A stretch of DNA of 64,000 nucleotides from Thermococcus barophilus MP. GTDB lineage: Archaea > Methanobacteriota_B > Thermococci > Thermococcales > Thermococcaceae. The notes below the pieces were generated by a model, which did not search any database, had not been told where the DNA came from, and was given only the letters and a program-made list of their open reading frames with translations. Below, one piece after another: positions 19,313 through 23,643 of the stretch. Made by a program: the position numbers and the translations under genes. Within the stretch, counting starts at the first letter, position 1. Each line of letters starts with the position of its first letter. The stretch covers positions 992,001 through 1,056,000 of the forward strand of contig NC_014804.1 of assembly GCF_000151105.2 (NCBI RefSeq), in the 5' to 3' direction.

Positions 19313-21214
19313 TCAAACAGGCCACTTGAGCTTCTTCCTCTTCTCAATTATTACATTGTATATTGTCTCTGCTGCCTTTACTGGATCCGGTTCAACGTAG
19401 AACTTCCCTCCAAGGAGGTCTTCAATCTCATCCGTGAGGAGCCTGGTAACCTTCTGGCTTCCGAGCACTGGTGGAACTACTCCCAAGTGGGTGAATACAC
19501 CGCTCGCAACGAAGTAAGTTCCAATTGACACTGCTTTTTCGCTCATCCATTCCGGAGCAGAGCCAGCTACTGGCAGGTCTGGAATATCAACGCCCAAAGC
19601 CTCAGCAAGCGCTCCAAGAACAATCAGGATTCTTGAACAGTCAACACAGCTACCCATATGGAGGCATGGCGGAATTCCAAGTGTCTCACACACTGCTCTA
19701 AGTCCCTCTCCTGCCATTTTTGCCGCTTCAGGTGTTAATAATCCATGCATCGCTGCTGCAATTCCCCAGCAACCAGTCCCAACTACCAAGATATCTCTCT
19801 TTATGAGCTCCTTGGTTAACGTTACATGACTGTGGTTGTGCTTGACCTTTGGATTATTACATCCAACAACTCCAACGATTCCTTTAATTGTACCTTCTCT
19901 GAGTGCATTGATGAGAGGTTCGAGCGTTCCCCCAAGGGCTTCAAGGATTGCTTCAACGCTGAAGCCCGCAACAACTTCACTCTTGTGTTTTGGAATGAAG
20001 ACCCTTTCTTTTGGCCTGTTTTGGAAGTTTTCAATTGCAATCTTGACTATCTCCTTAGCTATCTCATCAGCCTTCTCTGGTTTGAACTCTATGTGCACTG
20101 CTCCGGGTATGTGTGCCTTGGGTTCGGTCGTGATTATCTTGGTGTGATAACAGCCGGCTACATCAACCAATGATGGCATTAGGCACTGGTAATCAACGAC
20201 CATAGCTTCAACTGCTCCAGTAATTATTGCCAGCTCCTGCATCAGGAAGTTTCCAGCTGGGGGGATGCCGAGCCTCACTAAGACCTCATTTCCAGTACAG
20301 CACATTCCCGCAACATTCACCCCCTTGGCGCCGTATTTCTTGGCCAATTTCTGCATCTCTTCACTTTGGGCAACTTCGGCTATCTTCATTGACAGTATTG
20401 GGTTATGACCGTGGACAATTATATTCACATAATCTTCTTTGAGAACACCCAAATTTGCAGTAGTCTTAATTGGCTTTGGCGTTCCAAAGAGTATGTCGCT
20501 CAAATAGGTAGCCATCATTGAGCCGCTCCAGCCGTCAGCAAGAGAAGTCCTCACACCGTGAAGAAGGAGTGAAGCTGGATCTGCATCAACACCCATATGG
20601 GTTCTGTGCATACACTCACAGATTTCCCTGTCAATTGCCCTTGGCATGACTCCAAGCCTCTCCCAGACCTTAATCCTCTTCTTAGGTGCCGTCGCCATGA
20701 GCAATTTTAATGGCTCATCGTCAGGCTTTCCGAACTCCAATTCCAAGATATGTGCAACTTCCGAGGCTATTTCACTTTCACTCTTCCCCTCGATATCAAT
20801 GCCAAGAATTTGAGCCAATCCTTTAAGCTTCTCAACATCTGTCAGCCTGTACCCCTTAAACTCTCCTGTTGCTGCTCCTTTAAACACGTGGACGATGTCT
20901 CTTGCATGATCGCTGTGTGCTGCTGCTCCTGCAGCAATCATTCTCAAAATGTTCCTTGCAACTATTGTATCAGCATCTGCTCCACAAACACCTTTTGTTG
21001 GCCCAGCGCCAAATGGGTCGATCCTACATGGACCCATGTTACAGTTTCTACAACAGATTCCCAGAAGACCGAACCCACATTGGGGTTGCTGCTCTAAAAA
21101 GCGGTGCCAAGCGGTCTTCACGCCCTCCTCTTCAGCCTTCTCAATTAGGTTACCAACGCCCTTAGTTTCAGAAACCTGCTTTGCAGGAACCTTAAACTTT
21201 ATATATTCCGCCAT
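19313..21214 (-). CDS. cooS: Carbon monoxide dehydrogenase catalytic subunit (Ni-CODH)
   Basis: Oxidises CO with water to CO2, giving two electrons to CooF. Near residues 45-75, PQCGFGLLGICCRNCNMGPC supplies B- and D-cluster cysteines. C-cluster (Ni-Fe-S) ligands all appear present: His in HGHNP, Cys in CCTGNE, DVAGCYHTK, VGCNNPK, GTGCWGIA and MGSCVDCSR. Length is 633, normal for this class. The ATG at 21214 is six bases after GAGGTG; the GTG at 21223 lies inside that ribosome site. It sits between cooF and cooC. Confidence 0.95.
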   Translation of the reverse strand: MAEYIKFKVPAKQVSETKGVGNLIEKAEEEGVKTAWHRFLEQQPQCGFGLLGICCRNCNMGPCRIDPFGAGPTKGVCGADADTIVARNILRMIAAGAAAHSDHARDIVHVFKGAATGEFKGYRLTDVEKLKGLAQILGIDIEGKSESEIASEVAHILELEFGKPDDEPLKLLMATAPKKRIKVWERLGVMPRAIDREICECMHRTHMGVDADPASLLLHGVRTSLADGWSGSMMATYLSDILFGTPKPIKTTANLGVLKEDYVNIIVHGHNPILSMKIAEVAQSEEMQKLAKKYGAKGVNVAGMCCTGNEVLVRLGIPPAGNFLMQELAIITGAVEAMVVDYQCLMPSLVDVAGCYHTKIITTEPKAHIPGAVHIEFKPEKADEIAKEIVKIAIENFQNRPKERVFIPKHKSEVVAGFSVEAILEALGGTLEPLINALREGTIKGIVGVVGCNNPKVKHNHSHVTLTKELIKRDILVVGTGCWGIAAAMHGLLTPEAAKMAGEGLRAVCETLGIPPCLHMGSCVDCSRILIVLGALAEALGVDIPDLPVAGSAPEWMSEKAVSIGTYFVASGVFTHLGVVPPVLGSQKVTRLLTDEIEDLLGGKFYVEPDPVKAAETIYNVIIEKRKKLKWPV

Positions 21215-21224
21215 CACAACCACC

Positions 21225-21860
21225 TCAATACCACTTAACCTCTAAGTAGGCAGCATAGACATCCATTGGGCTGATTCTCTCTTCCTTTTTCTTTTCCTCA
21301 ACAACTGGCTTCATGTATACAATTCCTGGAACTTTCAAGCCCGAAATTAGTTCCTCCGCTCTTTCTTTTCTAATCTCGTCAAGAATCTCCTCAAGGGTTC
21401 CAAACTTCAATGCCTTGGTGGGGCAAGCTTCTACACATGCCGGCTCCCTGCCTTCCCTAACTCTCTCAATGCATGAATCGCACTTCAGAACAACCTTGTA
21501 CTCTGGCTCATATTTCGGATGTCCAAATGGACATGCCATAACACACATCAAACAGCCAATACACTTGTTGGTGTTGAGTATTACAAAGCCTTCTTCGCTC
21601 TTCTTTATTGCTCCAGTTGGACAAACTTTCATACATGGAGCATCTTCACAGTGCTGACACCTCAGCGGAACATTGAAGAAATCCGCAACTACAACCTTTA
21701 GCCTCGGCTTGGGTGTTGGTTTTTCAAAGATTGCTCCAAATAGTGTTTTGCTCATTGAATGTTCAACGGCACACGCTATTTCACAAGATCTGCATCCCAT
21801 GCACTTCTTTGGATCAATGTAAATTGTTGGTCTCTCCAAACTTGTCTTAAGAAGCGACAT
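21225..21860 (-). CDS. cooF: CODH electron-transfer ferredoxin CooF
   Basis: Polyferredoxin of 211 residues carrying electrons from CooS to the hydrogenase. Four cysteine motifs suggest four 4Fe-4S clusters: CMGCRSCEIACAVEHS, CQHCEDAPCMKVCPTGA, CIGCLMCVMACPFGHP and CDSCIERVREGREPACVEACPTKA-like sequence. The ATG at 21860 follows GAGGTGATAAC; the longer reading from 21953 would run through promoter sequence and an inverted repeat. First gene of the cooF-cooS-cooC-cooT group. Confidence 0.93.
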   Translation of the reverse strand: MSLLKTSLERPTIYIDPKKCMGCRSCEIACAVEHSMSKTLFGAIFEKPTPKPRLKVVVADFFNVPLRCQHCEDAPCMKVCPTGAIKKSEEGFVILNTNKCIGCLMCVMACPFGHPKYEPEYKVVLKCDSCIERVREGREPACVEACPTKALKFGTLEEILDEIRKERAEELISGLKVPGIVYMKPVVEEKKKEERISPMDVYAAYLEVKWY

Positions 21861-21964
21861 TGTTATCACCTCGAAACTTAGGTAAACAAAGGAGATTAAT
21901 AAGGAGACCGTGTTCGGCAAATAACTCAAAAACTTCTTAATTTGTTCATGCACAAGAACACGTT
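21861..21964 (-). promoter_or_regulatory. cooF promoter region with an 18-bp dyad
   Basis: Spacer between corR and cooF. The dyad at 21943-21960, TGTTCATGCACAAGAACA on the plus strand, has TGTTC/GAACA arms and an inner TG/CA pair, with one mismatched position on each side and a two-base centre. It lies 83 bases before cooF and just after the corR stop. TTATTAAT near 21895-21902 (minus strand) is a possible TATA element, which would place the dyad upstream, where an activator would bind. CorR is the natural candidate ligand (inference). Confidence 0.5.
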
Positions 21965-23083
21965 TCAGTATTCATAAAGTGATACTATTGCTTTTTCTCT
22001 TATTTCCCTGTACTCCTTTAAAAGGTCTTTAGCAAACTCCGTCAGAATTGTTATCCCTTTTTTCCTGCCCCCTCTGACAGATATAATCAAAGAAATGCCA
22101 AGTTTTTCTTCGAGACTTCTTATTTTTTCCCAATACGTCGAAGGGGAAACTCCAAGGGCTTTGCATGCAGCTCTAAATGAATTAACCTGGGAAATTAGTT
22201 CTAAAAGTTCCAAAATCTCTCCAGGGATCTCAACACCTTCTTTTGTCACGAATGAGACCCGTATTTTAGGTGAAAGCCCAACAACGTTTCGATTTATTGC
22301 ACAGGGTGAAAAGAGCATTTTTCTAAGGTCATCCTTAGTGATTTTCTTATAATTCACTTCAAATCTTGAAAGTGGACATTTTGAGAAGTTCCCATATGGA
22401 TTCAAGTATAGAGTTTTACAGTTCTCAGCACCTGGAGATGTCAGCAACGTTACTGGATAATTGTCTATGAAGACCTTAATGGCATTGTAGAAATATTTCC
22501 TTCCATAATGAAGACCAATTTCAACGTTTTCTTTTTTCGCAATTTTTTCAAGAAATTTATCTGCATATGGAGATGCGTAAAGCTTTGGTCCTAACGTTAT
22601 CTTTAACCCGTAACTTTTGCATAGTTCAATTGTTGAAAGAATTTCAGCAAAGTCAGAGTTGGAATCCAGCAAAATATACGCCTCAAGATTGTCTATACCC
22701 TGAGAAAGGAGCATTTTTACTGTCTGAAGGTTTGACTTTATGTCCTTATAAGAGGGTATAATTAGAGAAATAAAATCAACGTTTTCAAGAGAAGTTTTGT
22801 TGAGAAAATTTCTTGAGACTGATACTGGAATGAAGAGAGTAAGCTTTTTACAGAGTTCCATAGTTTGCCGGAGTATGATGTCAATCTTTGGATGGAGGAG
22901 AGGATTTGGGCATGTCAAAAGCCCTTCATCAAATCTAAAATCCTCAAGGTGAGAGCTGAGTATTTCTAATGCCTCAAGAGGGAGCATTATTCCAGCGCAA
23001 CCAAATTTCTCTTTCCAAGGACATATCAGACAACTACTGTCACATTTGCTTGAAGGCTGAACTGCTAAAATGCTCATATCCAT
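21965..23083 (-). CDS. corR: CO-responsive regulator CorR: Cys-rich N-terminal region plus winged-helix domain
   Basis: About 372 residues. The C-terminal 90 or so residues are a LysR/ModE-like winged helix (NSFRAACKALGVSPSTYWEK, then an IISVRGGRKKG wing). T. onnurineus CorR, with such a DNA-binding domain, activates the CODH cluster with CorQ. The N-terminal part holds Cys14-X3-Cys18-X2-Cys21 (CDSSCLICPW), the spacing of radical-SAM 4Fe-4S sites, and later cysteines (GAENC, FSKC, LFSPC) as in auxiliary cluster domains. Start: the corQ TGA overlaps the ATG at 23083; GTG at 23086 or ATG at 23077 are alternatives. Confidence 0.82.
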   Translation of the reverse strand: MDMSILAVQPSSKCDSSCLICPWKEKFGCAGIMLPLEALEILSSHLEDFRFDEGLLTCPNPLLHPKIDIILRQTMELCKKLTLFIPVSVSRNFLNKTSLENVDFISLIIPSYKDIKSNLQTVKMLLSQGIDNLEAYILLDSNSDFAEILSTIELCKSYGLKITLGPKLYASPYADKFLEKIAKKENVEIGLHYGRKYFYNAIKVFIDNYPVTLLTSPGAENCKTLYLNPYGNFSKCPLSRFEVNYKKITKDDLRKMLFSPCAINRNVVGLSPKIRVSFVTKEGVEIPGEILELLELISQVNSFRAACKALGVSPSTYWEKIRSLEEKLGISLIISVRGGRKKGITILTEFAKDLLKEYREIREKAIVSLYEY

Positions 23084-23643
23084 CACTCGAATATCACTTC
23101 AAATCCACAGAAAGAATTGCCAAGTCCCCAGCAGTAGATTTCACGAGTTACGTTCTTTCCAACGAGTTCTTCCATGACACCTTGAATAAGCCCTGCTTCA
23201 AAGTCACATAGGGTTCTGCCAATAGGAGGTGCTCGGTAACAACTGATACATTCATATATATTCACTTTCATCTTGCTGAATGACTCGTCTACAATGTCAA
23301 GAAGCCCTATTTTTTGATTTAGAAAGACTTTTGGCAGGTCATCAATGCTCCTAATCTCTCCAGTTTCTATCAATCTGCGAGCCAGATTATACCCTGCACC
23401 TCTCAAAATTAGAGTTCTCAAAGACGGGCTGTATTCAAGCATGCCATAAGAAACCATTCTGAATGTCCTCACGTATTCCCTATCCTCTGGAGAGATTTTC
23501 ACGAAAAACGGACGTACAACATTGAAGTAATTTTCCGGGGTTAGTCTAATCTCTTCTCTATGTTTCCTTTTGCTTTTAACCTCCTCTTTGTAAATTTTCC
23601 TCCACTTTTCTATTAGAACACTAATATCTTCCATACCAACCAT
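23083..23643 (-). CDS. corQ: CO-responsive regulator CorQ, V4R (4-vinyl reductase) domain protein
   Basis: 186 residues. The C-terminal half is a V4R-type small-molecule or metal-binding domain with cysteines at 132, 135, 146, 171 and 179 (YECISCYR, RTLCDFEAG, EIYCWGLGNSFCG). The T. onnurineus homologue works with CorR to switch on the CODH cluster in response to CO. A helical, basic N-terminus (residues 10-35) precedes the domain. First gene of the corQR pair, overlapping corR by one base. The ATG at 23634 is an alternative start. Confidence 0.82.
   Translation of the reverse strand: MVGMEDISVLIEKWRKIYKEEVKSKRKHREEIRLTPENYFNVVRPFFVKISPEDREYVRTFRMVSYGMLEYSPSLRTLILRGAGYNLARRLIETGEIRSIDDLPKVFLNQKIGLLDIVDESFSKMKVNIYECISCYRAPPIGRTLCDFEAGLIQGVMEELVGKNVTREIYCWGLGNSFCGFEVIFE

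Follow-up and report, generated by a model that had tools for sequence, protein, structure and literature searches.

The CO regulator CorR of Thermococcus barophilus: a radical SAM-like module with invariant cysteines joined to a C-terminal winged helix

The stretch of DNA analyzed here (the window) comprises 64,000 nucleotides of the genome of Thermococcus barophilus MP (NC_014804.1, positions 992,001 to 1,056,000). On its minus strand are five genes in the order corQ-corR-cooF-cooS-cooC. The subject of this work, corR (21965..23083, minus strand), is an open reading frame of 372 amino acids when read from ATG 23083, or one residue longer if translation starts at the in-frame GTG at 23086. 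The initial annotation had located this reading frame correctly, but without its strand. Overlapping corR by one base is corQ (23083..23643, minus strand), the product of which carries a V4R domain (Pfam V4R, E=2.4e-13). On the other side of corR are a gene for a cooF-like ferredoxin subunit (21225..21860, minus strand), for which the conserved start region makes ATG 21860 the probable start, and an open reading frame for the Ni-CO dehydrogenase, cooS (19313..21223, minus strand). The listed cooF reading frame begins at GTG 21953 (21861-21953, minus strand, being the additional segment), but orthologues favor a start near ATG 21860: the region 5′ of this ATG is promoter and automatic annotation may be over-extending cooF.

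Within this promoter region (window 21895-21962), between corR and cooF and just upstream of a TATA-like stretch, is a short element, CCGAACACG (21909..21917, minus strand), shared by every one of the 16 Thermococcales loci compared and occurring once in the window. Together with an inverted half-site, CGTGTTC (21956..21962, minus strand), it defines an outer span of 54 bp: the pair is found at exactly this span in 7 of the 16 loci, and the 2.06-Mb genome has no second copy of the exact pair. CCGAACACG with its inverted CGTGTTC is thus a candidate operator. In T. onnurineus the CODH promoter is also a target of a Tfx-family repressor, TON_1525 (PMC4791640), so that the site might belong to TON_1525 rather than to CorR.

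The corQ-corR-cooF-cooS order is also that of T. onnurineus NA1, which we take to be genome G026 of our sample; the CorR of G026 is 54% identical to the window protein and has all seven of the cysteines discussed below. Kim et al. reportedly found in 2015 that both corQ and corR are needed in T. onnurineus NA1, and a CorQR pair is said to exist in Korarchaeum cryptofilum. According to two publications, genetic work in T. onnurineus identifies CorQR as activating the CODH cluster (PMC4791640, PMC6557876), and CO-dependent activation of the CODH genes is reported for that species (PMC4791640).

Among 94 Thermococcales genomes CorR was found in 16 (one copy being split over two contigs), and the full-length Thermococcales-type proteins are 53-97% identical to the window protein. 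Both CorR orthology and the corQ-corR-cooF-cooS synteny hold in the window. All 15 genomes with a cooS at least 82% identical to that of the window contain corR. Genomes with only a 57-61% identical cooS do not, the exception being G064, in which the corR contig ends beside the gene. This second cooS type occurs in 17 Thermococcales genomes, 15 of them devoid of CorR, and must there be regulated by other means. When 396 archaeal genomes were searched with a CorR profile, a second CorR family emerged (f20, probably Korarchaeota; one of its genomes, G150, is probably K. cryptofilum), with five full-length copies 24-29% identical to the window protein. Sampling of homologues covered archaeal genomes, and the lone scan of genome contigs by plain sequence reached close relatives only. 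At two second-lineage loci (L078 and L082) the order V4R-corR-cooF-cooS-cooC is kept; corQ adjoins corR in every locus read, and the three V4R cysteines of CorQ are present in two distant CorQ homologues. A further second-lineage copy (L080, 4847-5785, genome G280) has its frame broken between the first ∼60 residues and the remainder, reflecting either a pseudogene or an assembly error. A record labeled ‘Thermotogota bacterium’ (L006) contains a corR 59-60% identical to that of the window and close to three Thermococcales copies (L018-L020); it is probably a mis-binned contig.

CorR has two parts: a module of radical SAM (rSAM) plus Twitch/SPASM type (residues ∼4-262), followed by a C-terminal winged helix-turn-helix of ModE/LysR type (residues 291-351; 22031..22213, minus strand). 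The winged helix scores above the cut-off for HTH_1 (E=6.2e-9), was found in 16 of 16 sequences in alignment A1 and matches PDB entry 2ijl. Its closest relatives are ModE-type proteins, although the match to TIGR00637 (ModE; E=1.6e-10), at 40.9 bits, is below the cut-off of 98.5. The initial annotation had noted that CorR homologues are described by a LysR-type DNA-binding domain. For the window protein this is apt as to the fold, which resembles both the ModE N-domain and HTH_1. It is not apt as to the architecture: the domain is C-terminal, there is no molybdate-binding domain, and a Pfam scan of CorR returned no LysR substrate-binding (effector) domain.

The remainder of the protein was compared with rSAM proteins at the level of profiles. 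Over 244 columns, running from beta-1 to within the Twitch region, an alignment of 19 CorR N-domains (A5) matched one of eight rSAM proteins (A7) with a probability of 98.7% (E=2.8e-16); A7 was built in part from matches to the CorR profile and those rows are not independent, while L046 (MoaA) and L047 were found independently via Pfam. Seven of the rSAM proteins concerned are confirmed as Radical_SAM by Pfam. Controls failed to reproduce the match: the real comparison scored 115.9, against a maximum of 22.5 for 40 column-shuffled profiles and 12 for the reversed profile. When 28 rSAM proteins from the same genome were compared singly with the CorR N-domain profile by hhalign, three reached 85-95% and most others scored low; none of 39 unrelated reading frames exceeded 1.4%. 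Beyond the CorR family the next matches of the profile were, where checked, ordinary rSAM proteins. Pfam Radical_SAM is sub-threshold on the window protein (E=0.008) but above the curated cut-off on a homologue, L079 (E=1.8e-7). As judged from these comparisons, homology to rSAM proteins having a Twitch/SPASM-like C-terminal half extends over the first ∼265 residues of CorR.

Sequence searches of the PDB with CorR matched essentially only the helix-turn-helix. Two low-confidence AlphaFold models built from shallow alignments (6-7 sequences; pLDDT 55-56) have an alternating strand and helix order that fits a partial (beta-alpha)6 barrel. This order, together with the profile match, defines the predicted rSAM-like core (residues ∼4-215; 22439..23074, minus strand). 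Foldseek ranked SuiB (E=1.2e-4) and BlsE (E=3.8e-3) at the top, a ranking that, because the models are poor, we use as support only.

The core begins with C14-x3-C18-x2-C21 (23021..23044, minus strand), a predicted first cluster site that aligns with the CX3CX2C motif of rSAM proteins. The initial annotation drew attention to this motif (C14-DSS-C18-LI-C21), which can be read directly from the reading frame, and to the later cysteines of GAENC (C222), FSKC (C236) and LFSPC (C261), all of which are indeed present. The motif alone is weak evidence, as CxxxCxxC turned up in 0.7% of 100,000 composition-preserving shuffles; it is conservation that decides. Seven cysteines (C14, C18, C21, C58, C222, C236 and C261) are invariant in 21 of 21 homologues (16 Thermococcales-type and five second-lineage), down to ∼24% identity. 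The 21 sequences share 29 invariant positions, and these include seven of the 11 cysteines of the window protein (hypergeometric P=2e-6). The other four, C29, C78, C155 and C307, are not kept in every homologue: C155, considered as a fourth Twitch ligand, is not kept in the second lineage and was ruled out, as were C29, C78 and C307 as ligands on account of their poor conservation.

CorR differs from rSAM enzymes at the position following beta-2. There these enzymes have a GGE motif, which makes contact with the SAM that the cluster's unique iron coordinates. In CorR the position is occupied by C58-P-N-P-x2-H64 (22892..22912, minus strand), in which C58, P59, P61 and H64 are invariant in all 21 sequences and residue 60 is N or D; the aligned pair reads TCPNPLLHP in CorR and TGGEPTLHP on the rSAM side. 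No homologue has the GGE, and the loop after beta-4 (SLD/E...RG in A7) is ∼10 residues shorter. On the strength of these two differences CorR appears to derive by conversion from an rSAM enzyme. The proposal of a radical SAM site is thus borne out as to the cysteine motif and the homology, but overlooks the missing SAM-binding motif; the accompanying suggestion of a repurposed enzyme fits better. Loss of SAM chemistry is likely, and C58, a candidate fourth ligand, would probably close the predicted first cluster. The GGE motif is, nonetheless, not universal: in the rSAM protein L134, which also gives a weak B12-binding match, the same position reads GPSP, and loss of GGE is therefore no proof of lost SAM binding. 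The aromatic residue before the third motif cysteine is absent in Thermococcales and present in most second-lineage copies.

A second predicted site falls in the Twitch/SPASM-like segment (residues ∼216-270; 22274..22438, minus strand), which contains C222-x8-G231-x4-C236 and then C261, the latter after a helix predicted by the low-confidence model; it also matches SPASM columns. Twitch domains have a cysteine before a beta-hairpin, one after it, and further cysteines after alpha-2′, and SPASM domains are defined by C-x9-15-G-x4-C (PMC6231123). CorR is one residue short of this definition and has a single later cysteine, and no SPASM domain was found by the Pfam scan; the order of its cysteines fits the Twitch layout. 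The MoaA of the same genome (L046) has the same C-x8-G-x4-C spacing. MoaA has a three-cysteine auxiliary site, where the three ligands leave an open iron that binds GTP (PMC9012708). With only three invariant cysteines at its second site CorR could likewise leave an iron open, and CO would be a plausible candidate to bind it.

Together these observations lead us to propose, with moderate confidence, that CorR is a transcription factor in which a converted rSAM/Twitch module forms the sensory half and the C-terminal winged helix binds DNA. Going beyond the homologous module and its seven invariant cysteines, we infer the clusters, the response to CO or redox state and the following steps. C14, C18 and C21 would bind a [4Fe-4S] cluster, the fourth ligand of which would be C58 where an rSAM enzyme has SAM, and no SAM would be cleaved. 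C222, C236 and C261 would bind another cluster and, like their counterparts in MoaA, leave one of its irons open. The signal could be CO itself, bound at the open Twitch iron, or a change in the redox state of a cluster when CO dehydrogenase reduces the pool of electron carriers. Either would alter CorR, which together with CorQ would activate the cooF-cooS promoter, perhaps at CCGAACACG. A bolder version is possible but speculative: CorR would be the first case of an rSAM/Twitch enzyme turned into a transcription factor, with a cysteine standing in for SAM at the first cluster and CO binding directly to the second cluster's open iron, making it a heme-free archaeal CO sensor.

Several other explanations bear on the same evidence. 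It is somewhat unlikely, in our estimation, that the clusters of CorR are structural or merely tune DNA binding, with the V4R domain of CorQ sensing CO or redox state and CorR serving as DNA-binding arm. The constant proximity of corQ and corR in the loci read and the retention of the V4R cysteines are as this explanation would have it, as is the reported need for both genes (Kim et al. 2015). In MsvR, moreover, the V4R cysteines affect redox-dependent DNA binding (PMC3729527). Yet nothing in the CorR N-domain is better conserved than its seven cysteines, one of them gained where GGE would be, and this suggests that CorR itself has an active metal site. CorR as a plain rSAM enzyme was set aside, GGE being absent in 21 of 21 sequences; that it still binds or cleaves SAM (for example, modifying CorQ or itself) while carrying a DNA-binding domain, with C58 catalytic or in contact with substrate, we consider unlikely. 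The intact CX3CX2C, rSAM and Twitch homology over 244 columns, the variation at the GGE position in at least one other rSAM protein (L134) and the aromatic residue surviving in most second-lineage copies speak for such an enzyme; the invariant Cys-Pro and the shortened post-beta-4 loop speak against it.

Cysteine clusters can also bind zinc, and the rSAM resemblance might then reflect ancestry of the fold with zinc-binding or structural cysteines and no Fe-S cluster. We think this very improbable, as both groups of cysteines coincide with Fe-S ligand positions of homologous enzymes and the hosts belong to strictly anaerobic lineages. That CorR is an ordinary LysR-type regulator with a coincidental CxxxCxxC is scarcely credible: the literature describes CorR by its LysR-type domain alone (PMC6557876) and the motif does arise in 0.7% of shuffles, but conservation in 21 of 21 homologues, the rSAM homology (E=2.8e-16), the C-terminal position of the helix-turn-helix and the missing LysR effector domain contradict it.

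The proposed converted rSAM sensor can be set beside several known systems. CorR has CX3CX2C and the order of core elements in common with the Twitch/SPASM rSAM enzymes MoaA, BtrN, SkfB and SuiB, but differs from such enzymes in its C-P-[N/D]-P, its shorter post-beta-4 loop, the single cysteine after the hairpin helix and the fused DNA-binding domain. MsvR, a V4R redox regulator of methanogens, has three conserved V4R cysteines, as does CorQ; it lacks an rSAM-like module, and in CorQR the V4R and helix-turn-helix domains are on separate proteins. The bacterial sensors CooA and RcoM are, as is reported for CorQR, CO-responsive activators of CO oxidation genes. They sense CO via heme, however, and neither CorR nor CorQ has a CRP or PAS domain according to Pfam. 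In two publications the T. onnurineus CorR is described as a LysR-type DNA-binding protein only, with no mention of an rSAM/Twitch module (PMC4791640, PMC6557876). Literature searches for transcription factors or CO sensors that contain rSAM domains returned nothing relevant, although the 2015 CorQR paper or database annotation may already note the similarity.

CorR is needed by some heat-loving archaea for life on carbon monoxide, and the analysis touches the question of how archaea sense CO without CooA or RcoM. If CorR is a converted rSAM enzyme, then two defined metal sites are named, a route from enzyme fold to sensor (GGE lost, cysteine gained) is shown, and it is explained how the LysR label came to hide the rSAM module; if the module bears clusters, CorR is an unfamiliar kind of CO or redox sensor. 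As engineering of CorQR has been used for higher CO-driven hydrogen production, the sensing site is also of practical interest.

Matches elsewhere to the full-length CorR profile were mostly ModE-type helix-turn-helix proteins, several of them fused to another domain. Many proteins of ∼325-370 amino acids from f20 and other archaea (L084-L102) have an N-terminal ModE-type helix-turn-helix and a different C-terminal domain; in f20 such fusion proteins occur in several copies per genome.
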